Shown in pieces: positions 5,625-22,114 of a stretch of 64,000 nt of DNA. Numbering within the stretch: the first letter of the stretch is position 1; the number at the start of each line of letters is the position of its first letter. Below the pieces are notes generated by a model, which saw nothing but the letters and a program-made list of their open reading frames with translations, ran no database searches and was not told the DNA's origin. Origin of the DNA: Rhodoferax sp. AJA081-3 (GTDB lineage Bacteria > Pseudomonadota > Gammaproteobacteria > Burkholderiales > Burkholderiaceae_C); the NCBI RefSeq assembly GCF_017798165.1, contig NZ_CP059068.1:1488001-1552000 (forward strand), in the 5' to 3' direction. The position numbers and the translations under genes were made by a program.

Positions 5625-6246
5625 ACGTACCGGCCCCACCCAGCCCGGCCAGATACGCATCCAGCGCCTGCGCACCCACCACCTCCAGGTCAAAGGCCTC
5701 GGGCTGCAACAGCCAGTTGGTCATCAGGCCGTCCAGCAGGGCGAACAGGCCCACGGCGGCGCTATGGGTTTCCAGCTGCGGGCGCACCTGGCCCTTGGCC
5801 TGGGCCAGGGCCAGCACGCGGGCCAGGTCCACCACGCGCTCCGCACGGTGGGCAATGTGCCGTTCGCGCACGGCCTGCAGGTCGTCGCCGTACTCCACGC
5901 GATGTGAGGCTATCTCAAACACCCGGCGCACCTGCAGGTTGTGCACGGTTTCGTTAAAAGCCGCGGCCACGTTCTGGCGCAGGTGCGCCAAGGGGTTGTC
6001 GGATTCGGCCTGGGGCTGGCTGTTGAGCCGGGTCAACATGGGCAGCTTCACGCGCTGCAGCATCGCGTCAAACACATCGGCCTTGTTCTGGAAGTGCCAG
6101 TAGATGGCGCCGCGGGTGAGCTGCGCCTCTTCGGCAATCTCTTGCAGCGCAGTGCGCGCCACGCCGCGGCGCAGGAACACCCGCTCGGCCGCGTCCAGTA
6201 TCAGGTCGCGGGTGATCAGGGCGTCTTCTTTGGTTCTGCGGGCCAT
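5605..6246 (-). CDS. acrR: TetR/AcrR-family repressor of the adjacent RND efflux operon
   Basis: A 213-aa TetR-family regulator. The N-terminal HTH (RDLILDAAERVFLRRGVART to GAIYWHFQNKADVF, residues ~12-58) matches AcrR/TtgR/MexR-type efflux repressors, and the C-terminal part is the ligand-binding domain (MAATS-type C-terminus). It is transcribed divergently from the efflux operon across a 172-nt region that contains a palindrome like the E. coli acrAB operator. Ligand-relieved repression of the pump and of itself is the likely role. The symbol rests on family and context, not proven orthology. Confidence 0.85.
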   Translation of the reverse strand: MARRTKEDALITRDLILDAAERVFLRRGVARTALQEIAEEAQLTRGAIYWHFQNKADVFDAMLQRVKLPMLTRLNSQPQAESDNPLAHLRQNVAAAFNETVHNLQVRRVFEIASHRVEYGDDLQAVRERHIAHRAERVVDLARVLALAQAKGQVRPQLETHSAAVGLFALLDGLMTNWLLQPEAFDLEVVGAQALDAYLAGLGGAGTFSGPMA

Positions 6247-6309
6247 AGGTTTCGGGTTATGCGTATCGGACTATGTTGACAACAGGGTTATTGCTTTCTG
6301 CACGCAATT

Positions 6310-6329
6310 TACATTCATTCATGTATGTA
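6310..6329. promoter_or_regulatory. Putative AcrR operator in the efflux promoter
   Basis: TACATTCATT-CATGTATGTA is an imperfect 20-bp palindrome with 8/10 positions symmetric. It closely resembles the TACATACATT...GAATGTATGTA operator known upstream of acrAB. A TATACT -10-like box (6328-6333) overlaps its right edge, so binding would block the pump promoter. Confidence 0.65.
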
Positions 6330-6418
6330 TACTAATCCAGATTTTCGAAATTGCCAGCCTCTTATGCTGCGCCCGCCTCCCGCCAGGTCCCCGTTTTGCC
6401 CTCCCAAAAGGATTTTTT

Positions 6419-7696: not shown

Positions 7697-7708
7697 GAGG
7701 CACAACAC

Positions 7709-10700
7709 ATGGCCCAGTTTTTTATCGACCGCCCCATCTTTGCATGGGTGATATCGCTCTTCATCATGGTCATGGGCGGCGTGGCGATCACGCAATTGCC
7801 CATTGCCCAGTACCCACCGGTGGCGCCGCCCACCATCGTCATTTCTGCGGGTTACCCCGGTGCATCGGCCAAGATACTGGAAGACAGTGTGCTGTCCGTT
7901 ATCGAGCGCGAAATGAATGGCTCGCCCGGCATGATCTACATGGAGTCGGTGGCCCAGGCCAACGGCACAGGTTCCATCTCCATCAGTTTTGAGCCCGGCA
8001 CCAATGCCGACCTGGCGCAGGTGGATGTGCAAAACCGCCTCTCACGCGCCACACCGCGCCTGCCTGCGGCTGTTACCCAGGCCGGTGTGCGGGTGGACAA
8101 GGCGCGCTCCAACTTTTTGCTGTTCACCATGTTGTCCAGCGACAACCCGGACATCGACATCGTGGCCCTGGGTGACTACGCCTCGCGCAATGTACTGCCC
8201 GAAATCCAGCGCCTGCCCGGCATTGGCCAGGCCCAGTTGTTTGGCACCGAGCGCGCCATGCGCATCTGGGTGGACCCGGCCAAGCTGAGTGGCTACAACC
8301 TGTCTGCGGCCGAGGTCAACGCCGCCATACGCTCGCAAAATGCGCAGGTGTCGTCCGGCACCATTGGTGAGCTGCCCAATATTGCCGGCCAGACCATTGC
8401 TGCCACCGTGGTGGTGGATGGCCAGCTCAGCACCGTGGAGCAATTTGGCAACATCGTGCTGCGGGCCAACACGGACGGCTCCACCGTGCGCCTCAAAGAC
8501 GTGGCCCGTATCGAACTGGGCGCCCAGACCTATGCCACCTCGGCCCGCCTGAATGGCAAGCCCGCCGCCGGTATTGGTGTACAGCTGGCACCCAGCGGCA
8601 ATGCACTGGCCGCAGCCAAGGCCGTGCGTGAGCGCATGGCGCAGTTGGAACCGTATTTCCCCAAGGGTGTGAAGTGGACCATTCCTTACGATGCTTCGCG
8701 CTTCGTGAAGATCTCCATATCGCAAGTGGCCGAGACGCTGATTGAGGCCGTCATCCTGGTGTTTTTGGTGATGTTCCTGTTCCTGCAGAACTGGCGCTAC
8801 ACCATCATTCCCACCATCGTGGTGCCGGTGGCTCTCTTGGGCACCTTTGCCACGCTGCTGGCACTGGGCTTCTCCATCAACGTGTTGACCATGTTCGGCA
8901 TGGTGCTGGTGATCGGCATTGTGGTGGACGACGCGATTGTGGTGGTCGAGAACGTCGAGCGCATCATGAGTGAAGAAGGCCTGCCACCGCTGGAGGCCAC
9001 CCGCAAGGCGATGGGCCAGATCTCTGGCGCCATCGTCGGTGTGACTGTGGTGCTGATTGCGGTGTTTGTACCGCTGGCATTCTTCCAGGGCTCGGTGGGC
9101 AATATCTACCGCCAGTTCTCGGCGGTGATGGTGGCATCCATCGGCTTCTCTGCCTTCATGGCGCTTTCGCTCACACCCGCGCTGTGTGCCACCCTGCTCA
9201 AGCCGGTAGAGGCTGGGCACCACCATGCCAAGACCGGCTTCTTTGGCTGGTTCAACCGCGGCTTCACTCGCACGGCCAAAACGTACGAAGGCTGGGTGGC
9301 TCGCATACTGTCGCGCGCTGGCCGCTACCTGATCATCTACGCCGCCATCATTGCCGTGGTGGGTGTGATGTATGTGCGCCTGCCCACCGCCTTCTTGCCC
9401 AATGAAGACCAAGGCACCATGCTGGTCAGCATCCAGCTACCACCGGGCGCTACGCGTGAGCGCACACAAAACGTCATGCAGCAGGTAGAGGTCTTCATGC
9501 TCAAGCAGCCCGAAGTGCAAAGCATGGTGGGCGTGCTGGGCTTCAGCTTCTCGGGCCAGGGGCAAAACGCCGCCTTCGGGTTTATCACGCTCAAAGACTG
9601 GTCTGAGCGCAAGGGCGAGGCGCATTCTGCGCAGGCCATTGCCGGGCGCGCTTTTGGTGGCCTGATGGGCATACGCGATGCGTTTATCTTCCCCTTGAGC
9701 CCACCGGCCATTCCCGAGCTGGGCCAGGCGTCTGGCTTTACCTTCCGCCTGCAAGACCGCGCTGGCAAGGGGCATGAGGCCCTGGTGGCCGCACGCAACC
9801 AGTTGATGGGTATGGCATCCAAGAGCAAGGTGCTCACCCAGGTGCGCCCGGATGGTCTGGAAGACGCGCCGCAATTGCAAATCGACATTGACCGCGACAA
9901 GGCCAGTGCGCTGTCGGTCAGTTTTGATTCCATCAACAGCACCATCTCCACCGCGCTGGGCTCGGCCTACATCAACGACTTCCCCAACCAGGGCCGCCTG
10001 CAGCGCGTGGTGGTGCAAGCCGACGCCACGGCGCGTATGCAGCCGGACGATATTTTGAAGCTGACCACGCCCAACGCCCGCGGCGTGCCGGTGCCACTGT
10101 CTGCGTTTGCCAGCACCCGCTGGGTCAAGGGTGCGATGCAAACCATCCGTTACAACGGCTACCCCGCCATGCGTATTGGTGGCTCTGCAGCGCCGGGCTA
10201 CAGCACCGGTGACGCCATGGACGAGATGGAAAAACTGGCCGCGCAATTGCCCGAAGGTTTTGCCTTTGAGTGGACCGGCTTGTCGCGCGAGGAAAAAATC
10301 GCCGGCTCACAAGCCTTAGTCTTGTATGGCTTTGCCATCCTGGCCGTGTTCTTGTGCCTGGCCGCGTTGTACGAGAGTTGGTCCATCCCGCTGTCCGTCA
10401 TTCTGGTTGTGCCCGTGGGCGTGCTGGGCGTGCTGCTGGCCACGGTGATGCGGGGTTATGCGAACGACGTGTATTTCCAGGTCGGGCTGATCACCATCAT
10501 CGGCCTGTCTGCCAAAAACGCGATTCTGATCATCGAGTTTGCAAAGGACTTGCAGGCCCAGGGCAAGACGGCTGTGCAAGCCGCACTGGCTGCGGCGCAT
10601 ATGCGCTTCCGCCCCATCTTGATGACGTCGATGGCTTTTATGCTGGGCGTGTTGCCGCTGGCTATCAGCAGCGGTGCAGGCTCTGCCAGCCAACGCGCTA

Positions 10701-10864
10701 TCGGCACCGGGGTGATTGGTGGCAGCCTGGTGGGCACCATCCTCGCCGTCTTCTTTGTGCCCATCTTTTTTGTGGTGGTACGCAGCATCTTCAAGGGCAG
10801 CGAACGCCAGCGCCAGTTTGATGCGGCACACGGACACCAGTCAGGAGTGCAAAGCCATGAGTAA
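7709..10864 (+). CDS. RND multidrug efflux inner-membrane pump (HAE1/AcrB family)
   Basis: A 1051-aa proton-driven pump of normal length. It starts with the family signature FFIDRPIFAWVISLFIMVMG. Twelve TM segments and two large periplasmic loops can be traced. TM4 carries the proton-relay aspartates (GIVVDDAIVVVENV), and the GLSAKNAILIIEFAK segment of TM10-11 is intact. It lies 12 nt after the adaptor gene and overlaps the outer-membrane factor gene by 8 nt. The substrate range cannot be read from sequence; AcrB/MexB relatives export hydrophobic antibiotics and dyes. Confidence 0.95.
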   Translation: MAQFFIDRPIFAWVISLFIMVMGGVAITQLPIAQYPPVAPPTIVISAGYPGASAKILEDSVLSVIEREMNGSPGMIYMESVAQANGTGSISISFEPGTNADLAQVDVQNRLSRATPRLPAAVTQAGVRVDKARSNFLLFTMLSSDNPDIDIVALGDYASRNVLPEIQRLPGIGQAQLFGTERAMRIWVDPAKLSGYNLSAAEVNAAIRSQNAQVSSGTIGELPNIAGQTIAATVVVDGQLSTVEQFGNIVLRANTDGSTVRLKDVARIELGAQTYATSARLNGKPAAGIGVQLAPSGNALAAAKAVRERMAQLEPYFPKGVKWTIPYDASRFVKISISQVAETLIEAVILVFLVMFLFLQNWRYTIIPTIVVPVALLGTFATLLALGFSINVLTMFGMVLVIGIVVDDAIVVVENVERIMSEEGLPPLEATRKAMGQISGAIVGVTVVLIAVFVPLAFFQGSVGNIYRQFSAVMVASIGFSAFMALSLTPALCATLLKPVEAGHHHAKTGFFGWFNRGFTRTAKTYEGWVARILSRAGRYLIIYAAIIAVVGVMYVRLPTAFLPNEDQGTMLVSIQLPPGATRERTQNVMQQVEVFMLKQPEVQSMVGVLGFSFSGQGQNAAFGFITLKDWSERKGEAHSAQAIAGRAFGGLMGIRDAFIFPLSPPAIPELGQASGFTFRLQDRAGKGHEALVAARNQLMGMASKSKVLTQVRPDGLEDAPQLQIDIDRDKASALSVSFDSINSTISTALGSAYINDFPNQGRLQRVVVQADATARMQPDDILKLTTPNARGVPVPLSAFASTRWVKGAMQTIRYNGYPAMRIGGSAAPGYSTGDAMDEMEKLAAQLPEGFAFEWTGLSREEKIAGSQALVLYGFAILAVFLCLAALYESWSIPLSVILVVPVGVLGVLLATVMRGYANDVYFQVGLITIIGLSAKNAILIIEFAKDLQAQGKTAVQAALAAAHMRFRPILMTSMAFMLGVLPLAISSGAGSASQRAIGTGVIGGSLVGTILAVFFVPIFFVVVRSIFKGSERQRQFDAAHGHQSGVQSHE

Positions 10865-12239
10865 GTTACGTTTGGCGCCACTGTGTGCGGCCATGGCCCT
10901 GTCAGCCTGCAGCTTCATACCTACGTATGAGCGCCCCGCTGCCCCGGTGGCCAGCAGCTTCCCCGCAGACGGTGCAACCGCCACCGGTGCCGCGCCCACG
11001 GCTGCAGCCGATATCGCCTGGCAAGACTTCTTCAAAGATGCCCGCCTTAAAAAGCTGATCGAGCTGTCTCTGCACAACAACCGCGACCTGCGCATCGCCG
11101 TGCTGGCCATCGAGCAGACCCGCTCCCAGTACAACGTGCGCCGTGCCGACGAACTGCCCACGCTGAATGCCGGCATCACCGGCAGTCGCGGCCCTGTTGC
11201 TTCGGGGGCTATTAACAGCACCTACACCGCAGGCTTTAGCGTCACCGCCTACGAGCTGGATTTTTTTGGCCGCGTGCGCGCGCTCAGCCAGGCCGCACAG
11301 GCCCAGGTGCTGGGGTCTGAAGAGGCACGCAAGACCGTGCAGATCAGCCTGATTGCGGCCGTGGCCAACACCTACCTGAGCCTGCTGGCCAATGACGAAC
11401 TGCTGCGCGTCACCCGCGAGTCCCTGGCCACACGGCAAGAGTCTCTGCGCCTGACGCAATTGAAGTTTGACAACGAAGCCGCATCCAAGCTAGAGCTGAG
11501 CCAAGCCCAGAGTCTGCTGGAGGGCGCCAAGGCCGCCTTCGCCCAGACCACCCGCCTGCGTGCGCAGGACGAAAACGCGTTGACCCTCTTGGTAGGCCAG
11601 CCCCTGCCCGCCGACCTGCCGGCCGGGCTGCCCATCACCGCCCAAGGCATGCTGCCGGATCTGCCGGCCGGTGTGCCGTCTGAGCTGCTGACCCGCCGCC
11701 CGGACATCCGCCAGGCCGAACAACAGCTGCTGGCCAACAACGCCAACATTGGTGCGGCGCGGGCTGCCTTCTTCCCCCGCATCACGCTGACCGGCAGCGC
11801 GGGTGTGGTCAGCAACGATCTGGACACCTTGTTCAGCAACGGCACGTCCGCCTGGACCTTTGTGCCCCAGTTGCTGCTGCCTATCTTTGACTATGGCCGC
11901 AACCAGGCCAATCTGGAATCTGCCAAGGTGGCCCGCGAGATTGCGGTAGCCCAGTATGAAAAGGCCATCCAGACCGGATTCCGCGAAGTGGCCGACGCTC
12001 TGGCCGGCCGCGCCACGCTGGGTGAGCAACTGCGCGCCCAGAATGCCCAACTGGCCGCCGAGAAGACCCGCATGGACCTGACCGACCTGCGCTTCAAACA
12101 CGGCGCGTCCAATGCTTTTGACGTGCTGGACGCCCAGCGCTCGCTGTTTGCGGCGCAACAGGCGGCGGTGCAGGTGCAGGCGCAGCAGGTGCAGAATTTG
12201 GTGACGCTGTACAAGGTATTGGGAGGCGGCTGGAAATAG
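10857..12239 (+). CDS. RND outer-membrane efflux factor (NodT/OprM family lipoprotein)
   Basis: A 460-aa outer-membrane channel subunit. The signal peptide has lipobox LSAC, and two OEP repeats follow, with motifs such as YELDFFGRVRALSQAAQAQ and LLTRRPDIRQAEQQLLANNANIGAARAAFFP. I chose ATG 10857, which overlaps the end of the pump gene; the longer upstream frame lies inside that gene. It is the last gene of the efflux operon. The borosin-like precursor gene begins 107 nt downstream in the same direction, with no obvious terminator between them. Confidence 0.93.
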   Translation: MSKLRLAPLCAAMALSACSFIPTYERPAAPVASSFPADGATATGAAPTAAADIAWQDFFKDARLKKLIELSLHNNRDLRIAVLAIEQTRSQYNVRRADELPTLNAGITGSRGPVASGAINSTYTAGFSVTAYELDFFGRVRALSQAAQAQVLGSEEARKTVQISLIAAVANTYLSLLANDELLRVTRESLATRQESLRLTQLKFDNEAASKLELSQAQSLLEGAKAAFAQTTRLRAQDENALTLLVGQPLPADLPAGLPITAQGMLPDLPAGVPSELLTRRPDIRQAEQQLLANNANIGAARAAFFPRITLTGSAGVVSNDLDTLFSNGTSAWTFVPQLLLPIFDYGRNQANLESAKVAREIAVAQYEKAIQTGFREVADALAGRATLGEQLRAQNAQLAAEKTRMDLTDLRFKHGASNAFDVLDAQRSLFAAQQAAVQVQAQQVQNLVTLYKVLGGGWK

Positions 12240-12251
12240 CAGGGTATGTGT

Positions 12252-12283
12252 CAATTACATATCGTTACACGGGCTATAGAATC
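12252..12283 (+). promoter_or_regulatory. Candidate promoter of borosin-like cassette 1
   Basis: GGGCTATAGAATC (12271-12283) is identical to the sequence upstream of the second precursor gene (17633-17645), and a GTTAC motif precedes it by a few bases in both. TATAGA/TAGAAT fits a -10 box. TTACAT (12255-12260) is a possible -35. The two cassettes are otherwise diverged here, so the conservation suggests a shared control element. Confidence 0.6.
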
Positions 12284-12346
12284 TGACAAAGGTTGCTGAG
12301 CCCAGGCAACCTTGTCCTACTTTCGTTCACTACCAAGGCCCCGTCA

Positions 12347-12568
12347 ATGTCTAAACTACTCGACTACCTGAACCACCTGGATTCCAATGCGACAGCCATT
12401 GCGGCTCACAACGCTGATCCGGCGGCCTATATGACGCAGTTTGGTTTGAATGCGAATGAGCAGCAAACGTTTATGTCTGGGGACAAGGCGGCAATTGCTG
12501 TTTTGGCCGGAATTGATCCGGGAGATTTGCCAAAAATTCAAGTGATGAACGTTGATGAGACCTTTTAA
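12347..12568 (+). CDS. Putative split-borosin precursor peptide 1
   Basis: A 73-aa peptide. Residues 1-56 form a compact helical leader with DPAAYMTQFGLNANEQ and SGDKAAIAVLAGID, matching the layout of SonA-type borosin precursors (a LigA-like borosin-binding domain). The last ~17 residues (about 57-73, including KIQVMNVDETF) are the candidate core, with branched hydrophobics that suit backbone N-methylation. It is the same length as the second precursor at 17699; the leader is conserved and the tail diverged. The start is the ATG at 12347 (MSKLL...), aligned to precursor 2; an upstream in-frame start adds 18 unlikely residues. It is the first gene of a P-DGC-DGC-methyltransferase operon. Methylation is inferred, not shown. 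Confidence 0.8.
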   Translation: MSKLLDYLNHLDSNATAIAAHNADPAAYMTQFGLNANEQQTFMSGDKAAIAVLAGIDPGDLPKIQVMNVDETF

Positions 12569-12597
12569 CCTGAGCTAGATTCCACTTTGCGAAGTCG

Positions 12598-14361
12598 ATG
12601 GTACGTCACAACATCATCAGGGCACTTGTTTGCCTTGCATTGGGATGGACTTATTCGTACGGTGTTATTGCTGAGGGGCAAGCGACTTTCGAAACCATCT
12701 TTGCTGAAGCGACAAAGGAATTAAGTACCTCACCGAACGAAGTCAGTTCAAGACTCGAACAGCTCAAGGCGTTGCAACCAACGTTCACACCTGAGCAGAA
12801 TGAAAGATATCACTTGCTTTATGCATTTTCCCTTGGCGCAAAAGGGATGCATGAAGAGCGGGTCGCGTTAGTAGAGTCTTTTATTGGTCAGGTAACCTCA
12901 CCTGCGCGGCGAGCGCGTTTCCAATACGAATTGATTGATGCCAACACCGCGTTGGGTAAGTATGAGCGGGCACTGCAAACAATGAATGAATCCATTGTGT
13001 TGCTACCTGCGATGGAAAAAACGTCGCAAAAGATCGTCGTCTTGCAAGGCGCTTTGAATTTATTGAACTCACTGCGGGCCTATGACGAGGCGCTGGAGTT
13101 CGCGGAGCGCATTTATGCATTGCGCGGTGACACTGCAGGCTCCTACGCAGCTTGCGTGGGCTTAGCCAACAAAGTTGAGACGAACTACATGCGCGGAAGC
13201 AATGCCACAGCCCGCGGATTGGTGCCAGATGCCATCCTGGCCTGCGATGCCAATAAAAATCAATTCTTTTCCCTGATCGTCAAAGTCTATGCGGCTATTG
13301 ATGTGATTGACTCTGGTGAGCACACAAAAGGTATCGCCACAAGCCTACCGCTGCTGAAAGACTTCTCGACACTGAGCAAAGACTCGGATTACCTCACGCA
13401 GTTGGAAGAGGCCCTTGCCCGCGCATACCTCAAGACCGGCAACACGGAACGTGCCGAACACTACGGGCTGAAGGCCTACCAACGGGCTCAGTCCAGCCGT
13501 GTCCTTGCATTGCAAGAAAAAACCAGCGAAACCATGGCCGCCATCAAACGCGCCCAAGGCCAGTTGGCCGCCGCCATAGGTTATTACGACATCAACCTGG
13601 ACCTGAAGAAAAAAGTATTGGACGACCAGTTGCACAAAAACCTGGCCTACCAGCGCGTCAAGTTCGACACCCAAGACAAGGCCAACCAGATGGCCTTGCT
13701 GGAGCAAAAGAACAAAAACCTGAACACCGAAAAAGCCCTGCAGCAAAACGAGTACCAGAACCTGATTCTGTTGTTGACGCTGGGCGCTGTGGTGCTGGCC
13801 ATACTTGGCGCGTGGCTGTACAACACACTGCGCCTTAAAAACATCTTCCGTGTGTCGGCCCAGGTGGACGGGCTTACGCAGGTGAGCAACCGCAGCCACT
13901 TCACGGCGTCGTCGCACCTGGCTTTCAGCGACCCCATGCGAAACGTGAGCCTGGTTTTGTTTGACATGGACTATTTCAAAAAAATCAACGACACCTATGG
14001 CCACGCTGCGGGTGATTGGGTGCTAAAAACGGTGTGCGCCACCGTGAAGTCCGAGTTGCCCAAAACTACCTTACTGGGGCGCCTGGGTGGTGAAGAGTTT
14101 GCCCTGTGCCTGCCCAATGTGCAGCACGAGGACGAAGCCCGCGCCCTGGCAGAACGCTGCCGCGCAGCCATAGCGGCTATCAACACAGCTCCCAGCGGTT
14201 TTGACTTTGCCATCACCGCCAGTTTTGGTGTGGCCACGCGCAACGCCCACCTGACCGACAGTTTTGAAGAGACATTGGTGCAGGCCGACAAGGCGCTGTA
14301 CCTCTCCAAAAACGAAGGACGCAACCGCGTCACCGTATACCAGCCTTCGGGAAAAGCCTAG
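12598..14361 (+). CDS. Membrane TPR-GGDEF putative diguanylate cyclase 1 (cassette 1)
   Basis: A 587-aa protein with an N-terminal signal/anchor, then a ~330-residue helical region with TPR-like repeats (NTERAEHYGLKAYQRAQ and similar), predicted periplasmic. One TM segment (about 388-406) and a cytoplasmic GGDEF domain follow. The active site is GGEEF at 497-501. The four residues at the usual RxxD I-site are PKTT, so product inhibition is probably absent. Its C-terminal half is very similar to the third cyclase at 17932. It lies 29 nt after the precursor gene and is co-directional. Family knowledge says it makes c-di-GMP; what the TPR part senses is unknown. Confidence 0.85.
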   Translation: MVRHNIIRALVCLALGWTYSYGVIAEGQATFETIFAEATKELSTSPNEVSSRLEQLKALQPTFTPEQNERYHLLYAFSLGAKGMHEERVALVESFIGQVTSPARRARFQYELIDANTALGKYERALQTMNESIVLLPAMEKTSQKIVVLQGALNLLNSLRAYDEALEFAERIYALRGDTAGSYAACVGLANKVETNYMRGSNATARGLVPDAILACDANKNQFFSLIVKVYAAIDVIDSGEHTKGIATSLPLLKDFSTLSKDSDYLTQLEEALARAYLKTGNTERAEHYGLKAYQRAQSSRVLALQEKTSETMAAIKRAQGQLAAAIGYYDINLDLKKKVLDDQLHKNLAYQRVKFDTQDKANQMALLEQKNKNLNTEKALQQNEYQNLILLLTLGAVVLAILGAWLYNTLRLKNIFRVSAQVDGLTQVSNRSHFTASSHLAFSDPMRNVSLVLFDMDYFKKINDTYGHAAGDWVLKTVCATVKSELPKTTLLGRLGGEEFALCLPNVQHEDEARALAERCRAAIAAINTAPSGFDFAITASFGVATRNAHLTDSFEETLVQADKALYLSKNEGRNRVTVYQPSGKA

Positions 14362-14387
14362 CTCTCCGATGACCAAGTCAGCAGCAG

Positions 14388-16169
14388 ATGCCCATTGCGA
14401 CTGACCTTGGGTTTTGTATCCGTGCGGTGCTGCTTGTGGTCTGGACCATGGCCTCTCCGCTGCTGGCCTTTGCTACCGAGCCGGACACTGTGGATGCGCT
14501 CCTCTCTGAGACTTCCAAACACCTGTACTCGGCGCCAGAGAAGGCCTTGGCTCCGCTTGAAAAGCTCAGCGCGCTGCAGCCTGCTTTTACACCTTCACAG
14601 AAGGAACGTTACCACCTGTCGCTTGCCAACTCACTGGGCTTTCGTGGGCAACATGCGCAACGCGTGGCCCTGGTGCAGTCCTTCATCGGCGAGGTGACTA
14701 CACCTGGGCGCCGTGCCAGTTTTCTCTACGAATTGATCGACGGTTACACCTCATTGGGCCAGTACGAGCAAGCCTTGCAGGCCCTGAACGAATCCATCGC
14801 CCTGTTGCCCGTGCTTGTAAAAACCGGTGACAAAATTGCCGTGTTGCAAGCTGCCCTTGCCGCCACCATCGCCTTTGAGGACTATGAGGTGGCGCTGGAC
14901 TTTGCCGAGCGCATCTATGCCCTGCGTGGGCCCGACAAGCCCGGCACCTACGCTGCGTGTGTGGGCCTTACTGACAAGGTAGAACTGCACTTCATGCGTG
15001 GTGCCAGCGCGCAGGCGCGTGCCCTGTTGCAAGACGCCATAGACGTCTGCAAGACCAACAACAACCCGTTCTTTGTGTTGATCAACCAATCCAATGCGGC
15101 GGTAGACCAGATCAACGCCGGTGACTATGCGGCGGGCCTGGCCAGTGGCTTGCCACTGTTCGCAGAACATGCTGCGATAAACCAGGGCTCGGACTATGTC
15201 ACCCAGCTGGAAGAGGCGGTTGCCCGTGCCTACCTGCAAATGGGCAATACCGAACGCGCCGAACACTATGGGCTGCAGGCCTACCAGCGTGCGCAGGTCA
15301 GCAAGATATTGGCCATGCAGGTCAAGACCAGCAAGACCATGGCTGCCATCCACCGCGCGAAGGGCGCGCCGGACCGTGCACTGTTTTACTACGACGCGCA
15401 CCTGGCACTGCGTAAACAATTGCTGGACGACCGCTTGCAACGAAACCTGGCCTACCAGCGGGTGCGCTTCGACACCCAGGACAGGGCCAACCAACAGGCC
15501 CTGCTGGAGCAGATAAACAAGAGTCTGGGCATTGAGAAGGCGTTGCAACAGGGCCGCTACCAAAACCTGGTGCTGCTGATGACACTGGGCCTGGTGGTGC
15601 TGGCCATAGTGGGCGCTTGGCTGCTGCGCACGCTGCAGCTCAAGAACCGGTTGCGCAAGTCGGCTCAGGTGGATGGGCTCACCCAGGTTTGCAGCCGGGC
15701 CCACTTCATCGCATGCGCACAGCAGGTATTTCGCGACACCGACCAGGACACCAGCCTGATGTTGTTTGACATGGACTTTTTCAAAACCATCAACGACACC
15801 TACGGCCATGCCACGGGTGACTGGGTATTGCAAGCGGTGTGCCACACCGTTCAGCAGCAACTGCCCAAAACCGCCCTGCTGGGGCGCCTGGGTGGGGAAG
15901 AGTTCGCCATCTGCCTGCCGCAGTTCAGCGCACAAGAGGCTCGCGCGCTGGCCGAACAATGCCGCGCAGCCATTGCAAACATTGGTGCACACCCCAGCGG
16001 ATTAAACTTGGAGATACGGGCCAGCTTTGGTATTGCCACACGCAGCGTCCAAGGCCCCGCCAGCTTTGAAGAGACACTGGCCGCGGCCGACAAGGCCCTC
16101 TACGTCTCCAAAAACGAAGGACGCAACCGCGTCACCGCTTATCAACACTCAGGTGCCCATTCCACATGA
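14388..16169 (+). CDS. Membrane TPR-GGDEF putative diguanylate cyclase 2 (cassette 1)
   Basis: A 593-aa paralogue of its neighbour with the same architecture: signal/anchor, periplasmic TPR-like sensor, one TM at about 392-410, and a GGDEF domain with GGEEF at 502-506. The I-site position reads PKTA, so there is no RxxD. It is more diverged than cyclases 1 and 3 are from each other, and it has no counterpart in cassette 2. The stop overlaps the start of the methyltransferase gene by 4 nt (ATGA), which implies translational coupling of cyclase and peptide-modifying enzyme. Confidence 0.85.
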   Translation: MPIATDLGFCIRAVLLVVWTMASPLLAFATEPDTVDALLSETSKHLYSAPEKALAPLEKLSALQPAFTPSQKERYHLSLANSLGFRGQHAQRVALVQSFIGEVTTPGRRASFLYELIDGYTSLGQYEQALQALNESIALLPVLVKTGDKIAVLQAALAATIAFEDYEVALDFAERIYALRGPDKPGTYAACVGLTDKVELHFMRGASAQARALLQDAIDVCKTNNNPFFVLINQSNAAVDQINAGDYAAGLASGLPLFAEHAAINQGSDYVTQLEEAVARAYLQMGNTERAEHYGLQAYQRAQVSKILAMQVKTSKTMAAIHRAKGAPDRALFYYDAHLALRKQLLDDRLQRNLAYQRVRFDTQDRANQQALLEQINKSLGIEKALQQGRYQNLVLLMTLGLVVLAIVGAWLLRTLQLKNRLRKSAQVDGLTQVCSRAHFIACAQQVFRDTDQDTSLMLFDMDFFKTINDTYGHATGDWVLQAVCHTVQQQLPKTALLGRLGGEEFAICLPQFSAQEARALAEQCRAAIANIGAHPSGLNLEIRASFGIATRSVQGPASFEETLAAADKALYVSKNEGRNRVTAYQHSGAHST

Positions 16170-16996
16170 TCCCAATCACCAAGCAAGGCAAACTCATCTG
16201 CGTAGGCACCGGCATGCGCATGGCAGGGCAAGTAACACCGCTGGCGCAGAGTTATCTAGAGACAGCAGACGTGGTGGTGTCCGCCGTGCCCAACATCTTT
16301 ACACGCAAGTGGATTCAGGGCCTTGCCAAGGAGTTCATATGTGTGCTGGGCTATTACGAAGACTGCGATGTAGACGGCAAAGACCGCCGCGACACCTACC
16401 GCCGCATGGCCGACACCATTCTGGACCAGGTGCGCGCGGGCAAGACGGTGTGTGCGGCCTTTTACGGCCACCCCGGCATTTTTGCCTGCATCTCCCACAT
16501 GGCGATCAAGGATGCACGGGCCGAAGGCTACAGTGCCGAGATGTTGCCGGGCATCTCGGCCGAAGACTGCCTGGTGGCCGACCTGGGCATTGACCCCGGC
16601 CGCACCGGCATGCAGTCCATGGAGACCACACAGTTCATGATTTATGAACGCAACATCGACCCCACGGCCCTGTTGATCCTGTGGCAGCCCTCACTGGCGG
16701 GAGAGCTGAGCCTGAAGCGTTTCGAGACCACGGCGGCACGCATACAGGTGCTGGTGGACAAACTGGCGCGGCACTACCCGCTGGACCACACTGTGATCCT
16801 GTACGAGGCAGCCACCAGCCCGCTGGAAACAACACGTATCGACAAAATCGCGCTGCGCGACCTGCCCACGGCCCACCTGGTCAGCTCCACCACCCTGGTC
16901 ATCCCCGCTGCATTTGCATTGAAGCGGGACGAGGCCATCATCGCCCAACTCAACGCGCTGCCCGAGGCGCCGCGGCTGGAAACAGAAGCGGCTTAA
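16166..16996 (+). CDS. Putative borosin alpha-N-methyltransferase 1 (SonM/OphMA-like)
   Basis: A 276-aa tetrapyrrole-methylase-fold SAM enzyme. GKLICVGTGMRMAGQVTPL starts the fold. YGHPGIFACISHM and the SAM-site segment MLPGISAEDCLVADLG follow, then DPGRTGMQSMETTQFM and LLILWQPSLAGE. It resembles the stand-alone borosin methyltransferase SonM more than any cobalamin or siroheme enzyme. The Y63/Y64 and R74-x3-Y78 residues fit the catalytic Tyr/Arg region reported for OphMA/SonM (from memory). There is no fused substrate tail, so a separate precursor is expected, and one lies at the operon start. The predicted reaction is SAM-dependent methylation of core amide nitrogens. Confidence 0.82.
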   Translation: MIPITKQGKLICVGTGMRMAGQVTPLAQSYLETADVVVSAVPNIFTRKWIQGLAKEFICVLGYYEDCDVDGKDRRDTYRRMADTILDQVRAGKTVCAAFYGHPGIFACISHMAIKDARAEGYSAEMLPGISAEDCLVADLGIDPGRTGMQSMETTQFMIYERNIDPTALLILWQPSLAGELSLKRFETTAARIQVLVDKLARHYPLDHTVILYEAATSPLETTRIDKIALRDLPTAHLVSSTTLVIPAAFALKRDEAIIAQLNALPEAPRLETEAA

Positions 16997-17029
16997 GCCA
17001 CCCGGGTGATCGGCGGCGATCGGTGGCGC

Positions 17030-17518
17030 TCAGCGAGCCATCGCCTCCAGGAAAGCAAAGGCGTTCGGGAAGCTATTGGGTTCTGGTGACCGCGGCCAGA
17101 TGTGGCTGGGTGGGGGGGCACCAAAATACTTCAGGTAATCCGCCTCCAGCAGGCGCAGCTTTTCACGCATGTTCTCGGCCGATGCGATCTGCTCCTCAAT
17201 ACCACCACCGCCTGTCTCCGGAGAGTGGTGGATGAATGTGCCTGCTATCTCCTGGCAGAAGCGCGCGTAGTCTTTTGTAAACAGGATGAAGGTGTGCCAC
17301 ATGGCATCCACCTGCCCGCCCGTTGCGTACGTCTTCTCAGGGTGCAAAGCGCATAAGGTGAACCACCGCTTGAGTTCCAGCAAGGTTTCAGCGGCCGACT
17401 CCAAAGGCACATTGCCATCTTTGGCATACCGGGCAGTGACCTTTGCGAAGTCAAACATGGAAATTTTGTCGAACAAGCGTCTGGCCTGTTCGGTGTCTGG
17501 GCTTGTCGCAAAGGTCAT
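17030..17518 (-). CDS. Hypothetical protein between the two borosin-like cassettes
   Basis: A 162-aa soluble protein. Its core contains VDAMWHTFILFTKDYARFC followed by GTFIHHSPE. This recalls the W-H-x-F/H-x-L-F segment of the GRDP-like (glycine-rich domain protein) family, but no glycine-rich tail is present. It is transcribed divergently from precursor 2 and faces the end of methyltransferase 1. It could be part of the RiPP locus or an unrelated insert between the duplicated cassettes. No function is assigned. Confidence 0.65.
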   Translation of the reverse strand: MTFATSPDTEQARRLFDKISMFDFAKVTARYAKDGNVPLESAAETLLELKRWFTLCALHPEKTYATGGQVDAMWHTFILFTKDYARFCQEIAGTFIHHSPETGGGGIEEQIASAENMREKLRLLEADYLKYFGAPPPSHIWPRSPEPNSFPNAFAFLEAMAR

Positions 17519-17614
17519 GGTGCTGGTTTGCGGGTAGGCTTGTATCGGTGGTCGTGTATCTTAAGCTGCCTCCAGGATGGGCTGGGGCCGTGGCGACGGT
17601 GGCTGCGGGTCGCC

Positions 17615-17645
17615 GGATACAACTTGTTACCTGGGCTATAGAATC
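17615..17645 (+). promoter_or_regulatory. Candidate promoter of borosin-like cassette 2
   Basis: It has the same GGGCTATAGAATC (17633-17645) as upstream of cassette 1, again preceded by a GTTAC motif. A TACAAC/TTGTTA stretch lies at about -35. It sits 54 nt before the precursor ATG. The preceding region back to 17519 contains no gene and separates this operon from the divergent 162-aa gene. Confidence 0.6.
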
Positions 17646-17698
17646 CGTGGCGGATTGAAAGTCTGCACTGCCTCATCCACCAAAAAATAGGATTCTCC

Positions 17699-17920
17699 AT
17701 GTCGAAACTGTTGGGCTACCTCAATCTCCTGGACACAGACGCTGCAGCACGCGCAACCCACGCGGCGGACCCTGCCACTGCGATGACGCAGTTTGGCTTG
17801 AATGATGCCGAACAGGGCGCAGTGTTGTCTGGGGACAAAGCGGCGATTGGGCAGCTGGCAGGCGTTGATTTGAAGGATGGGCTGACTACACAGAGCGGCT
17901 GTACAGGCGACGCGAGATAA
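17699..17920 (+). CDS. Putative split-borosin precursor peptide 2
   Basis: A 73-aa paralogue of the peptide at 12347. The leader is strongly conserved (MSKLLGYLNLLD, DPATAMTQFGLNDAEQ, SGDKAAIGQLAGVD). The C-terminal ~17 residues (ending TTQSGCTGDAR) are unrelated to the first core and lack its hydrophobic run. The length is identical, so this looks like core divergence, though loss of a functional core is possible. ATG 17699 has TAGGA about 9 nt upstream. It is followed after 11 nt by cyclase 3. Confidence 0.78.
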   Translation: MSKLLGYLNLLDTDAAARATHAADPATAMTQFGLNDAEQGAVLSGDKAAIGQLAGVDLKDGLTTQSGCTGDAR

Positions 17921-17931
17921 GGATCGAACGA

Positions 17932-19686
17932 ATGCGATGGTTCATAAGAGCCGTTGCGTTGCTTGTATGCGTACTGGGCTGCGTGGGCCTAGCGCATGCA
18001 AACGCTCAGAATCCAGTAAATCTTTTACTGGATGAATCGCTGGCGTTGATTCTTTCAACACCGGAGAAGGCGTCTGTCCCGCTCACCAAATTGCAAGCAC
18101 TGCGGGACACCTTCACACCAGATCAGAATCAGCGCTACCACGCTCAGTATGCAAATTACCTGGGTTTCCAAGGCAGACATGAAGAGCGCGTCGCCTTGGT
18201 ACGGTCCATCATTGACCAAGTTTCAACACCGTTGAGACGGGCCTCCCTGCTTTACAACCTGGTGGATGGTAACCGCGCCTTAGGCAACTACGAAAGTGCT
18301 CTACAGGCAATGAATGAGTCCATTCTCCTATTGCCGTCACTCGACAAGATCAACGCCAAACTTTTGGTGCTGAACGGTGCCATATCCCTGTTGACTACCC
18401 TGCGTGCGTATGACGAGGCCCTCGATTTGGCAGAGCGTCTGATCGCCTTGGATCCAGGCGCAACTGGAACCCGCACGCAGTGCCACGGTCTGGCTGCCAA
18501 AGCGGAGCTGAACTTCAAGCTTGGCAACAGCCAACTGGCCGAGTCCTTGGTGCCACAAGCCGTGCTGGCCTGCGACGCCAGCAAAGAACACATGGCGTCC
18601 CTGATCGTCAAGAGTTTTGTAGCCATTGACTTGGTCGATGCAGGGCAATACGCAAAAGGCATCACCACCAGCCTGACCCTGGTACAACAGTTTCAAACCG
18701 TAGGCACGGGTTCGAACTGGTTGGCTGCAGTTGAAGAGGCGCTGGCCCGCGCCTACCTCAAAACCGGCAATATGGAGCGCGCCGAGCATTTCGGCACGCT
18801 GGCCTACGACCGTGCACAGTTAGCCAAAGATCTGGAATGGCAAGAAAAAACCAGCGAAACCATGGCTGCGATCAAGCAGGCCCAGGGTCAGTTGGCAGCG
18901 GCCATTGCTTACTACCAGACCAATCTGGCCTTCAAGAAGAAGGTACTGAACGACCAACAGCAAAAGAACCTGGCCTACCAACGCGTCAAGTTCGAGACCC
19001 AGGACAAGGCCAACCAAATGGCTTTGCTGGAGCAGAAGAACAAAACCCTGAGCACCGAGAAGGCCCTGCAACAAAACGAATACCAGAACCTGATTTTGCT
19101 GCTGACCCTGGGTGCGGTTGTGCTGGCCATACTCGGTGCCTGGCTGTTCAATACCCTGCGGCTGAAAAACATGTTCCGTGTTTCTGCGCAGGTGGACGGG
19201 CTCACGCAGGTCAGCAACCGCGCGCACTTCACGGCGTGTGCGCAGGCGGCATTCAACGACGCGGCAAGCAGCGTGAGCCTGGTGTTATTTGACATGGATT
19301 TCTTCAAAAAAATCAACGACACCTACGGCCACCCGGCGGGGGACTGGGTGCTCAAGACCGTGTGCACCACCGTAAAAGACCAGTTGCAAACCGCTGATTG
19401 CTTAGGGCGCCTGGGTGGTGAAGAGTTTGCCCTGTGCCTGCCCAATTCCTCCGACGAAAAAGCGGCGGCTCTTGCAGAGCGTTGCCGCGCGGCAATTGCT
19501 GCAGTCGACACCCATCCCAGCGGCTTTGATTTTTCCATCACTGCCAGTTTTGGCATTGCCACGCGCAAGGCACACGAAGCTTCCAGTTTTGAGGAAACGC
19601 TGGTAGCGGCGGACAAGGCGCTGTACTTCTCCAAAAACGAAGGGCGCAACCGCGTCACGGTCTACCAACACTCCGGTGCCTATTAA
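17932..19686 (+). CDS. Membrane TPR-GGDEF putative diguanylate cyclase 3 (cassette 2)
   Basis: A 584-aa protein: signal peptide ending near AHA, periplasmic TPR-like region, a TM at about 385-404, and a GGDEF domain with GGEEF at 495-499. The I-site position reads QTAD rather than RxxD. From about residue 300 on it is nearly identical to cyclase 1 (MAAIKQAQGQLAAAIAYY, then the linker and the cyclase domain), while the N-terminal sensor is more diverged. An AAGGA precedes the ATG. It lies 2 nt before the methyltransferase 2 gene. The role is inferred as a membrane c-di-GMP synthase tied to the RiPP locus. Confidence 0.85.
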   Translation: MRWFIRAVALLVCVLGCVGLAHANAQNPVNLLLDESLALILSTPEKASVPLTKLQALRDTFTPDQNQRYHAQYANYLGFQGRHEERVALVRSIIDQVSTPLRRASLLYNLVDGNRALGNYESALQAMNESILLLPSLDKINAKLLVLNGAISLLTTLRAYDEALDLAERLIALDPGATGTRTQCHGLAAKAELNFKLGNSQLAESLVPQAVLACDASKEHMASLIVKSFVAIDLVDAGQYAKGITTSLTLVQQFQTVGTGSNWLAAVEEALARAYLKTGNMERAEHFGTLAYDRAQLAKDLEWQEKTSETMAAIKQAQGQLAAAIAYYQTNLAFKKKVLNDQQQKNLAYQRVKFETQDKANQMALLEQKNKTLSTEKALQQNEYQNLILLLTLGAVVLAILGAWLFNTLRLKNMFRVSAQVDGLTQVSNRAHFTACAQAAFNDAASSVSLVLFDMDFFKKINDTYGHPAGDWVLKTVCTTVKDQLQTADCLGRLGGEEFALCLPNSSDEKAAALAERCRAAIAAVDTHPSGFDFSITASFGIATRKAHEASSFEETLVAADKALYFSKNEGRNRVTVYQHSGAY

Positions 19687-19688
19687 CG

Positions 19689-20510
19689 ATGACACCAACA
19701 CAACACGGCAAACTGGTCTGCGTCGGCACCGGCATGCGCATGGCCGGGCAACTGACACCACTGGCGCGCAGCTATATCGAGACGGCGGACGTGGTGGTTG
19801 CGGCGGTGCCCAACCGTTTTGCACGCAAGTGGCTGCAAGATATTGCCAAGCAATACATTTGCCTGCTGGACTACTACGCAGACTGCGATATCGAGGGCAA
19901 AGACCGCCTCGACACCTACCAACGCATGTCAGCAACCATCCTTGATGAGGTGCGCGCAGGTAAAACAGTTTGCGCCGCCTTTTATGGTCACCCGGGAATA
20001 TTTGCCTGCATCTCACACATGGCCATTGAGGCTGCGCGGGCCGAGGGTTTTAGTGCAGAAATGCTGCCCGGCATATCTGCGGAAGACTGCCTGGTGGCCG
20101 ACTTAGGCGTAGACCCGGGCCGTACGGGCATGCAGTCCATGGAGGCGACGCAGTTCATGATTTTCGAGCGCCGCATCGACCCGACGGCGCTATTGATTCT
20201 GTGGCAACCCTATATTGCCGGTGACCTGAGCCGCAAGCGTTTTGACACCACGGCCGCCCGGTTGCAGGTACTGGTGGACAAGCTGGCGCGGGACTACCCG
20301 CTGGACCACCCAGTCATCCTGTACGAAGCCGCCACGAACCCGCTGGAAGAGCCGCGCATGGAGACTATCCTGCTGCGCGATTTGCCTAGCGCCGTGTTGA
20401 ATGGCATCACCACGCTAGTCATTCCAGCCGCATACCCATTGAAGCTGGACGAGGCCATCATCGCCCAGCTCCAAGCGCTGCCCGAGGCACCGCTGCTGGA
20501 GGCGGTTTAA
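19689..20510 (+). CDS. Putative borosin alpha-N-methyltransferase 2 (SonM/OphMA-like)
   Basis: A 273-aa paralogue of the enzyme at 16166, closely similar over its whole length. It shares GKLVCVGTGMRMAGQLTPL, YGHPGIFACISHM, MLPGISAEDCLVADLG, DPGRTGMQSMEATQFM and the KDRLDTYQRM segment with the Arg and Tyr expected near the active site. It has no C-terminal substrate extension, which fits a split system acting on the peptide at 17699. It is the last gene of cassette 2. A dispersed repeat begins directly after its stop codon. Confidence 0.82.
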   Translation: MTPTQHGKLVCVGTGMRMAGQLTPLARSYIETADVVVAAVPNRFARKWLQDIAKQYICLLDYYADCDIEGKDRLDTYQRMSATILDEVRAGKTVCAAFYGHPGIFACISHMAIEAARAEGFSAEMLPGISAEDCLVADLGVDPGRTGMQSMEATQFMIFERRIDPTALLILWQPYIAGDLSRKRFDTTAARLQVLVDKLARDYPLDHPVILYEAATNPLEEPRMETILLRDLPSAVLNGITTLVIPAAYPLKLDEAIIAQLQALPEAPLLEAV

Positions 20511-20560
20511 GCAAAATAAGCCTCTAGCCCTCGTGAAATATAGTGGTATAGCTATCAATT
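20511..20560 (+). repeat. Dispersed palindromic repeat, copy A
   Basis: GCAAAATAAGCCTCTAGCCC opens the copy, then TCGT and an AT-rich tail with TATAGCTAT. It shares the GCCTCTAGCCCCCGT-type core with copies at 26961, 39057, 48024, 58859 and 62949. It lies between the convergent ends of methyltransferase 2 and the next gene. Confidence 0.75.
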
Positions 20561-21213
20561 CATGAGCGACTGAAGTTCAGAAAGTGGCCTTTATAGGCCT
20601 CACCCGTGCTCTGCGTGCTGCCCGCGCGCTGCAGATCCAGCGTGTAACCTAGCGCTTCCATCTTGCGGCAAAAGCCCTTGCGGTTGCCGCGGTCCGGGTC
20701 CAGCACGATGATGCTGACGGGGTCGGCCGAGTGCAGGTGGATGAACTGCGACAGTGTCTCGGGTTGGTCCCGCTCATACAACACGTCGCTGGCAATGATC
20801 AGGTCGAACTGGCCTAGCCCCAGGTTCTCGCGGCCCCAGTGGCCGGTCTGGTACTTGAGCGCCGGCAGGTCGTTGCGCAACACGTTGTCGGCCAGAAAAG
20901 CCGCAGTCAGCGGGTGGCAGTCACTGGCGGTGATGTCGCCCAGGCGGCGGTGGATGACCAGGCTGGCCAGCGCCAGGCCACAACCAATCTCCAGAATGCG
21001 CTTGCCCGCAATGTCGTAGGTCTGCATGGCGTTGGCCAGCATACGCGCCGACGGCCACACCATGCCAAACAGCGGCCAGCTGGCCGACGAGATGCCCGCA
21101 GCCAGCGCCGCGCCATCCGGGTCGGCATACTGCTGGCGGTCCAGCAGCGAGCGAATTTCAAAATGGGATGTACCCAGCAAGTGGGTCTCGAACTTGACCT
21201 GGTAGCCTGGCAT
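20560..21213 (-). CDS. Class I SAM methyltransferase (Methyltransf_16 / lysine methyltransferase-like)
   Basis: A 217-aa Rossmann-fold methyltransferase. Motif I is ILEIGCGLALASLVIHR. D/SDCHP marks the acidic loop, and FDLIIASDVLYER is the motif typical of the Methyltransf_16 (METTL21/EEF2KMT) group, which methylates protein lysines. ATG 21213 is preferred because AGGAGC lies 6 nt upstream; the longer frame uses a TTG start. It is convergent with the borosin-like cassette 2. The substrate is unknown. Confidence 0.75.
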   Translation of the reverse strand: MPGYQVKFETHLLGTSHFEIRSLLDRQQYADPDGAALAAGISSASWPLFGMVWPSARMLANAMQTYDIAGKRILEIGCGLALASLVIHRRLGDITASDCHPLTAAFLADNVLRNDLPALKYQTGHWGRENLGLGQFDLIIASDVLYERDQPETLSQFIHLHSADPVSIIVLDPDRGNRKGFCRKMEALGYTLDLQRAGSTQSTGEAYKGHFLNFSRS

Positions 21214-21403
21214 GTCGCCGCTCCTGAAAGCCAATGCTGTGTGGCAGGTGAGAAAAAATGCTTTTGCTCATCAGACACAACACGGGCAAGCGTGCGATGT
21301 GGGTGGACCGGGCACCGAGTGCGGGCTTTGTGGCCCGCTGCCCGAGTGTAACGGGCCACCCTAGAATGGGCTTTGCGAGGGCTGCCATGCCCCGCAAGCC
21401 AGC

Positions 21404-22114
21404 ATGCCCACACCCTCTCCAGCCACGGCCCACCAAACTGATCCGCCCCACGCGGTCCGCGCACTGCTGCTCGACCTGGATGACACACTGATAGACGACC
21501 GCAAGGCCATGGCGGCTGCGGTCTTGCTATTGCGTGCACAACTGGGGTTAGCGCCCAGCGAAGACAACGACGGCGTCGCGGCCCGTTGGGATTCGATAGG
21601 CAGGGCTTTATGGGGCCGGTGTGCGGCGGGCGAGATCAGCTTTGCGGAGCAGCGCCGCGTGCGCCTGCGCGAGACCTTTGGCATCGCGCTGGCCGACCGC
21701 GAGGCAGACGCCCTGTTTGACGAATACCTGCGCTTCTACGCGCTGCACTGGGAACTGTTCCCCGGTGCCACAGAATTCCTTGCTGCCACCGCACACCTGC
21801 CGCGAGTGCTCGTGACCAACGGCCACCGTGCCCAGGTAAACAAAAAACTGCAGACGCTGGGGCTGGCAGGCCATTTCCAGTTTGTGGTTACGCCGGACGA
21901 CTGTGGAGCCAAGAAGCCTGACCCGCGCATCTTTTTGCGTGCGCTAGAGCTTCTGGGTGTGGCACCGCAACACGCCATGATGCTGGGCGACAACGCCGTG
22001 TCGGACATTGCGCCCGCAGCTGCACTGGGTATGCAAGTGTTCCATGTAGACCACCGTGTGCAAGGCCAGTCTATTGCGGATGGCATTCGCCACGCCGTGG
22101 CAAGTCACTACTAA
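21404..22114 (+). CDS. HAD-family hydrolase (subfamily IA, phosphatase-like)
   Basis: A 236-aa HAD phosphatase. Motif I is LLLDLDDTLIDD, with nucleophile and acid/base Asp. Motif II is RVLVTNGHRAQV. The motif III Lys is in CGAKKPDPRIF, and motif IV is MMLGDNAVSDIAPA. A helical cap lies between motifs I and II. This is the YjjG / phosphoglycolate-phosphatase-like layout, and the substrate cannot be assigned. The first ~17 residues are Pro/Thr-rich, so the true start may be slightly later. Confidence 0.85.
   Translation: MPTPSPATAHQTDPPHAVRALLLDLDDTLIDDRKAMAAAVLLLRAQLGLAPSEDNDGVAARWDSIGRALWGRCAAGEISFAEQRRVRLRETFGIALADREADALFDEYLRFYALHWELFPGATEFLAATAHLPRVLVTNGHRAQVNKKLQTLGLAGHFQFVVTPDDCGAKKPDPRIFLRALELLGVAPQHAMMLGDNAVSDIAPAAALGMQVFHVDHRVQGQSIADGIRHAVASHY

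Follow-up and report, generated by a model that had tools for sequence, protein, structure and literature searches.

The closest described counterpart of the locus reported here is the split borosin pair SonM/SonA of Shewanella oneidensis, in which a discrete α-N-methyltransferase goes with a separate LigA-like precursor of about 70 residues (PMC8429565, 2021); the sections of that paper available to us deal with the enzyme and its precursor, do not mention a tetratricopeptide repeat (TPR) signal protein and state that a final natural product had yet to be assigned to any split borosin pathway. Membrane diguanylate cyclases with a periplasmic sensor follow the plan N-terminal hydrophobic segment, sensor, transmembrane (TM) segment and GG(D/E)EF output. 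RRNPP receptors (Rap–Phr, NprR–NprX, AimR–arbitrium) are switched by a peptide whose small gene lies next to their own; by definition their TPR domain is cytoplasmic, the output is a helix-turn-helix or of the Rap type, and the peptide is re-imported. We analysed a 64,000-nucleotide stretch of Rhodoferax sp. AJA081-3 (bases 1488001–1552000 of a 5.17 Mb single-contig genome), hereafter the window, numbered from its first base. At 12347–20510 on the plus strand it holds a tandem pair of cassettes that resemble SonM/SonA in their discrete methyltransferases and separate precursors and differ from it in being two and in carrying three cyclases, each with a TPR and a GGDEF domain (TPR-GGDEF 1–3). 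Our reading, to which we give a probability of roughly 0.55, is that type IV split borosins act as modules for peptide signalling in which the TPR domain is the receptor; with equal confidence we take the window to present two cassettes of a widespread module composed of a SonA-type precursor, a SonM-type methyltransferase and a dedicated membrane TPR partner. The genes are as follows.

12347–12568, plus strand: precursor 1, 73 aa, with a SonA/LigA-like leader and the C-terminus LPKIQVMNVDETF (iterated precursor profile)
12598–14361, plus strand: TPR-GGDEF 1, 587 aa, TPR domain predicted to be periplasmic, TM helix and GGEEF cyclase (Pfam, hydropathy)
14388–16169, plus strand: TPR-GGDEF 2, 593 aa, an extra copy within cassette 1 (Pfam)
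16166–16996, plus strand: methyltransferase 1, 276 aa, a SonM-like α-N-methyltransferase
17699–17920, plus strand: precursor 2, 73 aa, with the C-terminus LTTQSGCTGDAR (precursor profile)
17932–19686, plus strand: TPR-GGDEF 3, 584 aa (Pfam, AlphaFold2 model)
19689–20510, plus strand: methyltransferase 2, 273 aa, TP_methylase match with E 4e-23

Cassette 1 runs precursor 1, TPR-GGDEF 1, TPR-GGDEF 2, methyltransferase 1, and cassette 2 runs precursor 2, TPR-GGDEF 3, methyltransferase 2. The first-pass annotation had described three membrane TPR-GGDEF proteins between precursor and methyltransferase genes, one overlapping a methyltransferase start by 4 nt, and all of these genes are present as described: the overlap is that of TPR-GGDEF 2 with methyltransferase 1 (16166–16169), and a gap of 2 nt separates TPR-GGDEF 3 from methyltransferase 2. 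The start codon of precursor 1 was set by likeness to relatives (the longest frame begins at 12293). The nearest cassettes are found in Rhodoferax and other Burkholderiales-group records.

The locus has the defining parts of a type IV split borosin, namely separate SonM/OphMA-homologous methyltransferases without a fused core (276 and 273 aa) and a discrete adjacent precursor of about 75 aa with a SonA-like binding domain. Methyltransferase 1 matches SonM (PDB 7ltc_A) with E 1.2e-84 and the more distant fungal OphMA family with E of about 1e-41; methyltransferase 2 is 78% identical to it. Residues Y58, R67 and Y71 of SonM, which are discussed in the part of PMC8429565 available to us, correspond to Y64, R74 and Y78, invariant in an alignment of 18 methyltransferases (correspondence read by eye from the alignment of methyltransferase 1 with SonM). 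Homology strongly indicates that the enzymes would N-methylate the core backbone, and these active-site positions are conserved. Taken alone, precursor 1 shows only weak likeness to SonA (E 0.18 in a direct PDB search); the iterated profile seeded with the window pair also recovers a close SonA homologue (locus L170, below). Precursor 2 matches LigA of Pfam (E 1e-3) and TIGR04509, an NHLP-related RiPP (ribosomally synthesized and post-translationally modified peptide) family (E 1.9e-5), both below cut-off, and precursor 1 is 79% identical to that of locus L034.

The three TPR-GGDEF proteins are 56–67% identical to one another (60% for TPR-GGDEF 2 and 1). In TPR-GGDEF 1, 2 and 3 the GGDEF domain (PF00990) is matched with E 9e-37, 1e-35 and 3e-39, and TPR_12 with E 3e-4, 1e-7 and 1e-8, above the curated Pfam cut-off in TPR-GGDEF 2 and 3 and below it in TPR-GGDEF 1. 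Hydropathy places a TM segment within residues 387–412 of each, and an N-terminal hydrophobic segment exceeds the threshold in TPR-GGDEF 2 and 3, not in TPR-GGDEF 1; judged by hydropathy only, 103 of 114 cassette TPR-GGDEF proteins (pooled from the surveys below) have both the N-terminal and the pre-output segment. The AlphaFold2 model of TPR-GGDEF 3 (pLDDT 89.3, pTM 0.61) predicts a TPR superhelix and a single helix, residues 321–420, that leads from it through the membrane to the GGDEF domain. Among 32 sequences, C184 of TPR-GGDEF 3 never varies and C214 is conserved in at least 90%; in a TPR-only alignment neither varies, a pattern that would fit a disulfide in an exported domain. The cassette proteins share the plan of membrane diguanylate cyclases with a periplasmic sensor and differ from these in being dedicated to a RiPP locus. 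A GG(D/E)EF output is readable in 109 of the 114, and the GGEEF active site of a diguanylate cyclase is intact in all three window copies, which are predicted to synthesize cyclic di-GMP (c-di-GMP). Of the 109, 86 keep the RxxD product-inhibition site; none of the three window copies has it, and less self-limitation of their output is therefore to be expected.

Linkage was surveyed in two sets: 52 loci found with a profile of close relatives run on public genomes, and 100 loci whose neighbourhoods come from the 70 SonM-positive among 295 genomes of another order. The sets overlap (e.g. in Neiella genomes) and are therefore not summed; they were pooled for the spacing, covariation, 114-protein and protease counts. 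Neighbours were classified with our own profiles and counted when on the same strand and within 4.5 kb of a SonM-like gene. A TPR partner is present at 96 of the 100 loci (64 TPR-GGDEF, 15 TPR-histidine kinase, 17 TPR-only; four have none) and at 45 of the 52 (30 TPR-GGDEF, 15 TPR-histidine kinase; seven have neither). The dedicated TPR-GGDEF that had been noticed in this SonM/SonA-type locus is thus linked to SonM-like genes far beyond the strain. The four partnerless loci of the larger set are L184 (adjoined by a TPR-GGDEF on the opposite strand), L212, L253 and L262 (a short stretch at a contig end); its TPR-only class includes L173, despite a separate downstream GGDEF frame, and L231, which is cut at a contig end. 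The seven of the smaller set are L060 (cut at a contig end), L071 (a GGDEF protein without a TPR match), L078–L080, L082 and L085. All 24 Burkholderiales-group loci with an uncut gene (L034–L056 and L061; two record titles give no order) run precursor, TPR-GGDEF, methyltransferase, some with a second precursor or a second TPR-GGDEF. Nine kinases were scanned and contain HisKA, HATPase and receiver domains together with TPR matches (weak in L074), and six of the nine also Hpt. At genus level a TPR partner occurs in 20 of 21 genera examined, four of which have both the GGDEF and the histidine kinase version.

The linkage is local and reciprocal. In the 100 stretches, 89 TPR-GGDEF or TPR-histidine kinase genes lie within the 4.5 kb limit (963 kb) and 0 beyond it (373 kb). 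A Shewanella-type TPR-GGDEF query (E 1e-45, a cut-off of our own choosing, four candidates scored per genome) matches 36 of the 295 genomes, all of them among the 70 that bear the methyltransferase, and at 41 of the 47 places a SonM-like gene is no more than 5 kb away (coordinates read by eye). When the 47 genomes holding loci of the 52-locus set were checked for contig and position, 26/26 TPR-GGDEF matches in the 24 Burkholderiales-group genomes and 9/16 in the others were at the cassette. Within the family of the window's organism, TPR-GGDEF occurs at E 1e-40 in one of 299 genomes, the window's own, and the methyltransferase at E 1e-20 in two, one at 41% identity. Only the three window proteins among 68 matches to TPR-GGDEF 3 in the Rhodoferax genome extend over the TPR part; with the recurrence in other genera, families and classes, this shows that the arrangement is not due to chance. 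The genes are closely spaced (median gaps 18 and 8.5 nt; both gaps ≤ 60 nt in 54 of 80 cassettes, with frames counted from the first start codon), and their order varies by clade, being precursor–TPR–methyltransferase or methyltransferase–precursor–TPR. SonM-like genes and membrane TPR signal proteins are in a conserved, reciprocal association.

There is next to no chance, in our view, that the genes are adjacent by descent alone without a functional tie. Such an origin would account for the flanking gene common to 70 of 276 pairs of Burkholderiales-group loci, which are close relatives; but the other 206 pairs have no common flank, gene order differs by clade, outputs are swapped and presence is reciprocal. 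Neutral synteny was rejected on the survey linkage, the distance control, the reciprocal test and the few shared flanks. Plasmid carriage was also set aside: five plasmid records hold only distant methyltransferases (33–39%).

The founding pair can be linked to the same arrangement. Locus L170, probably from a Shewanella closely related to S. oneidensis, encodes a methyltransferase that matches SonM end to end (E 1.5e-167) and a precursor with 62 of 71 residues identical to SonA, the C-terminal part included (counted on the alignment); the gene adjoining the precursor encodes a 596-aa TPR-GGDEF. The closest SonM/SonA relative that we fetched has, in other words, the same TPR-GGDEF neighbour as the window, and the arrangement is not special to this strain. 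Quick trees, without bootstrap, place methyltransferase 1 with L034/L035 (SH-aLRT 98) and methyltransferase 2 with L039/L040 (97), and likewise TPR-GGDEF 1 with L034/L035 (99) and TPR-GGDEF 3 with L039/L040 (100). The precursor tree agrees by nearest rows (cassette 2 falls in a three-row clade supported at 100; for cassette 1 the supported clade, at 95, has just two rows). Since these clades are concordant, each cassette seems to have been inherited as a whole; TPR-GGDEF 2 branches apart from copies 1 and 3, in neither clade.

Indirect evidence from fold, covariation and exported TPR-only proteins supports the earlier suggestion that the TPR part senses the peptide. Because Foldseek returned only GGDEF proteins, WspR and PleD among them, in the 50 matches listed for the full-length model, the TPR part was searched separately; it resembles the Rap, NprR and AimR peptide receptors and likewise other TPR proteins. 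We propose that the cassette TPR would work like an RRNPP receptor, being switched by a neighbouring peptide. The systems differ in that no sequence kinship has been shown, the cassette TPR is predicted to be periplasmic and joined by a TM segment to GGDEF or histidine kinase, and the cassette peptide is predicted to be backbone-methylated. Membership of the RRNPP family was dropped, as the cassette outputs are GGDEF, histidine kinase or none and, by hydropathy, an N-terminal hydrophobic segment and a TM segment before the output occur in 103/114 TPR-GGDEF proteins; only the comparison of how they may work is kept. Precursor distances covary with TPR distances beyond methyltransferase and GGDEF distances, which is suggestive of a peptide–TPR partnership.

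The TPR protein might instead be a local regulator of peptide production that answers another periplasmic cue and switches the borosin genes through c-di-GMP or a phosphorelay, the peptide being an effector (an antimicrobial or metal binder) and not a ligand. Regulators are commonly encoded within biosynthetic clusters, and both the operon-like spacing and the lack of a widespread exporter among the neighbours suit this account. We consider it rather unlikely: it predicts neither exported TPR-only proteins without an output nor TPR–precursor covariation beyond methyltransferase and GGDEF, and no c-di-GMP riboswitch or other Rfam RNA was found in 10500–21500 at E up to 1, on which ground riboswitch feedback was rejected. 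TPR domains also serve as protein-binding scaffolds, and the TPR domain could chiefly be a periplasmic chaperone, processing or export partner whose signalling domain reports peptide traffic. The tandem TPR-only forms that adjoin precursor and methyltransferase agree with such a role, as does covariation of TPR with the leader that is, under full controls, about as strong as with the core. A signalling output fused to TPR in 79 of the 100 loci goes beyond the need of a chaperone, however, and no export machinery recurs widely; this role seems to us distinctly improbable.

Several observations weigh against the TPR domain as a dedicated peptide receptor. The TPR fold is a generic one, and against the TPR model Rap scores no higher than APC/C and other TPR proteins. 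Actinobacterial and acidobacterial precursor–methyltransferase pairs (L078–L080, L082) have no TPR neighbour, and of ten further loci sampled by class and family three have one and seven do not, the methyltransferases of the seven being 29–41% identical; a TPR partner is hence not required for a borosin as such. Six of the 47 places in the reciprocal test, and 7 of the 16 matches outside the Burkholderiales group, lie away from a cassette, and with E cut-offs of our own choosing weaker TPR-GGDEF relatives may exist in genomes without the methyltransferase. The covariation may partly come from uneven rates or shared descent: when only the methyltransferase is controlled for, the core shows the same correlation with fast GGDEF sites as with TPR (0.31 each), in a dereplicated set the core–GGDEF correlation stays at 0.19 (p 0.002), and the leader, not the core alone, covaries with TPR. 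Finally, no signal peptide was seen in the precursors (by eye, no predictor being used) and no widely recurrent exporter among the first 22 neighbour clusters of 155 loci, and these findings give the peptide no evident route to a periplasmic TPR.

If the TPR domain is the receptor, the pathway would run in five steps. In the cytoplasm the methyltransferase would, as homology strongly indicates, N-methylate the precursor along the backbone of its C-terminal core; a peptidase would free the core, for which a pepsin-like aspartic protease is a candidate in one subtype; the protease-resistant peptide would reach the periplasm by a carrier, none of general distribution having been identified; it would bind to the exported TPR domain, in the groove of the superhelix, as the indirect evidence above suggests; and the change would, judging by the architecture, travel along the 100-residue helix through the membrane and set the output in the cytoplasm: c-di-GMP from a GGDEF dimer in the window, a phosphorelay in cassettes with a histidine kinase. 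Peptide binding, export and the direction of signalling are what we infer. The constant element is the exported TPR domain, whereas the output varies or is absent. The peptide-to-c-di-GMP circuit of the first-pass annotation is therefore supported, indirectly, as to peptide sensing and falls as to c-di-GMP as its constant feature; with TPR joined to histidine kinases or standing alone elsewhere, 'peptide-to-signal' describes it better. We hold more tentatively, at slightly less than even odds, that type IV split borosins form a Gram-negative pheromone system of methylated peptides, periplasmic TPR receptors and interchangeable outputs (c-di-GMP cyclase, phosphorelay or soluble TPR alone), the sonMA product being an intrinsic signal and not an antibiotic.

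Recurrent neighbours were collected up to 6.5 kb to each side of the 155 loci. The widest clusters are a GNAT acetyltransferase (33 genes, 14 genera) and a pepsin-like protease (19 genes, 10 genera); 12 of the 16 genes of a mixed cluster (12 genera, 7/16 on the same strand) encode GGDEF proteins. Ten further cluster representatives were annotated as one ABC-exporter-like protein and otherwise enzymes, a GntR regulator and a histidine kinase. Exporter-type neighbours comprise an ABC-exporter-like cluster (five genes, three genera) and a resistance-nodulation-division (RND) cluster (five genes, four genera). The pepsin-like aspartic protease (PF00026) and the GNAT gene stand together by the SonM-like gene at 15/100 and 5/52 loci (e.g. 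L186:4598–6412, L062:8187–9989). Ten of these 20 protease entries have an acidic-core precursor (..PAEDDDE..), nine have none detected and one has another. According to the part of PMC4814920 available to us, the bacterial pepsin shewasin D is found mainly in the cytoplasm, so a protease of this type would suit the role of leader peptidase. An M17 aminopeptidase takes its place before the GNAT gene at a few loci (L224:4726–6485), and an M14-type carboxypeptidase, another candidate peptidase, lies near the cassette on the same strand at 11 loci of three genera including Undibacterium (L056:5718–7427). At L219:7695–9875 and L238:1619–6423, TPR-only proteins that bear N-terminal hydrophobic segments are encoded in tandem, two to four of them, beside precursor and methyltransferase. 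At L064:10815–16706 and L065:5258–11158, two methyltransferases and a precursor are followed by a TPR hybrid kinase and, after it, a receiver-GGDEF protein; c-di-GMP may be the end point of this phosphorelay. The L210 locus follows a glycine cleavage P-protein gene.

Three further features belong to the surroundings of the window cassettes.

12254–12283, plus strand: promoter-like region before precursor 1, holding GTTACNNGGGCTATAGAATC at 12264–12283
17030–17518, minus strand: 162-aa protein of unknown family, between the cassettes
17626–17645, plus strand: second copy of the promoter-like motif, before precursor 2 (pattern search)

The two occurrences of the promoter-like pattern, before precursors 1 and 2, are the only ones in the 5.17 Mb genome, and TATAGAAT-like boxes lie upstream of some relatives' precursors, not all. 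The sigma-70-like match at 12254–12282 is weak (one found, 2.7 expected by chance), and shuffles yielded more sites in promoter and terminator scans than the sequence itself. The minus-strand gene that separates the cassettes is probably not part of the system: Pfam and NCBIfam scans of its 162-aa product gave no match, and relatives precede the cassette in L039 and L040 only (2/24 Burkholderiales-group loci). An RND efflux operon at about 6104–12239, with a TetR-like gene on the opposite strand, lies upstream of cassette 1. In L034, L039 and L040 the operon likewise stands ahead of a single cassette, and in L035 its outer-membrane gene stands ahead of the cassette; with this position in just 3–4 of the 24 loci, it is not a general exporter and was rejected as the cognate one. 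Given these single cassettes behind the same operon, the pair in the window may unite two arrangements.

One bacterial borosin product has reportedly been described in a 2023 paper, to judge by its title. The novelty of the present arrangement is limited, and the first-pass claim that no borosin system had been described with dedicated c-di-GMP enzymes is doubtful, by the Figure 1 legend of PMC11395268 (2024), the part of that paper that bears on this, which defines 'GGDEF' among borosin architectures; it is the only source in the open literature searched to bring borosins and GGDEF together. No statement of a TPR protein as peptide receptor, or of the kinase-linked version, was found in that literature, of which parts were available, and Imani 2022, Cho 2022, Crone 2023 and Lee 2024 may describe neighbours. 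The available parts of PMC11395268, PMC8429565, PMC11285071, PMC4814920, PMC2761423 and PMC10885120 do not contain the TPR-receptor claim, which is not proof of its absence from print.

Taken together, borosin genes are nearly always paired with a membrane sensor-switch protein in many water bacteria, and this pairing suggests a signalling role for the peptide itself. If the partner gene encodes the receptor, its function would be testable in a tractable bacterium through a common c-di-GMP phenotype of sonA, sonM and TPR-GGDEF. Signalling by c-di-GMP is rich in orphan sensors, and it would, if our reading is true, gain a class of gene-encoded ligands.

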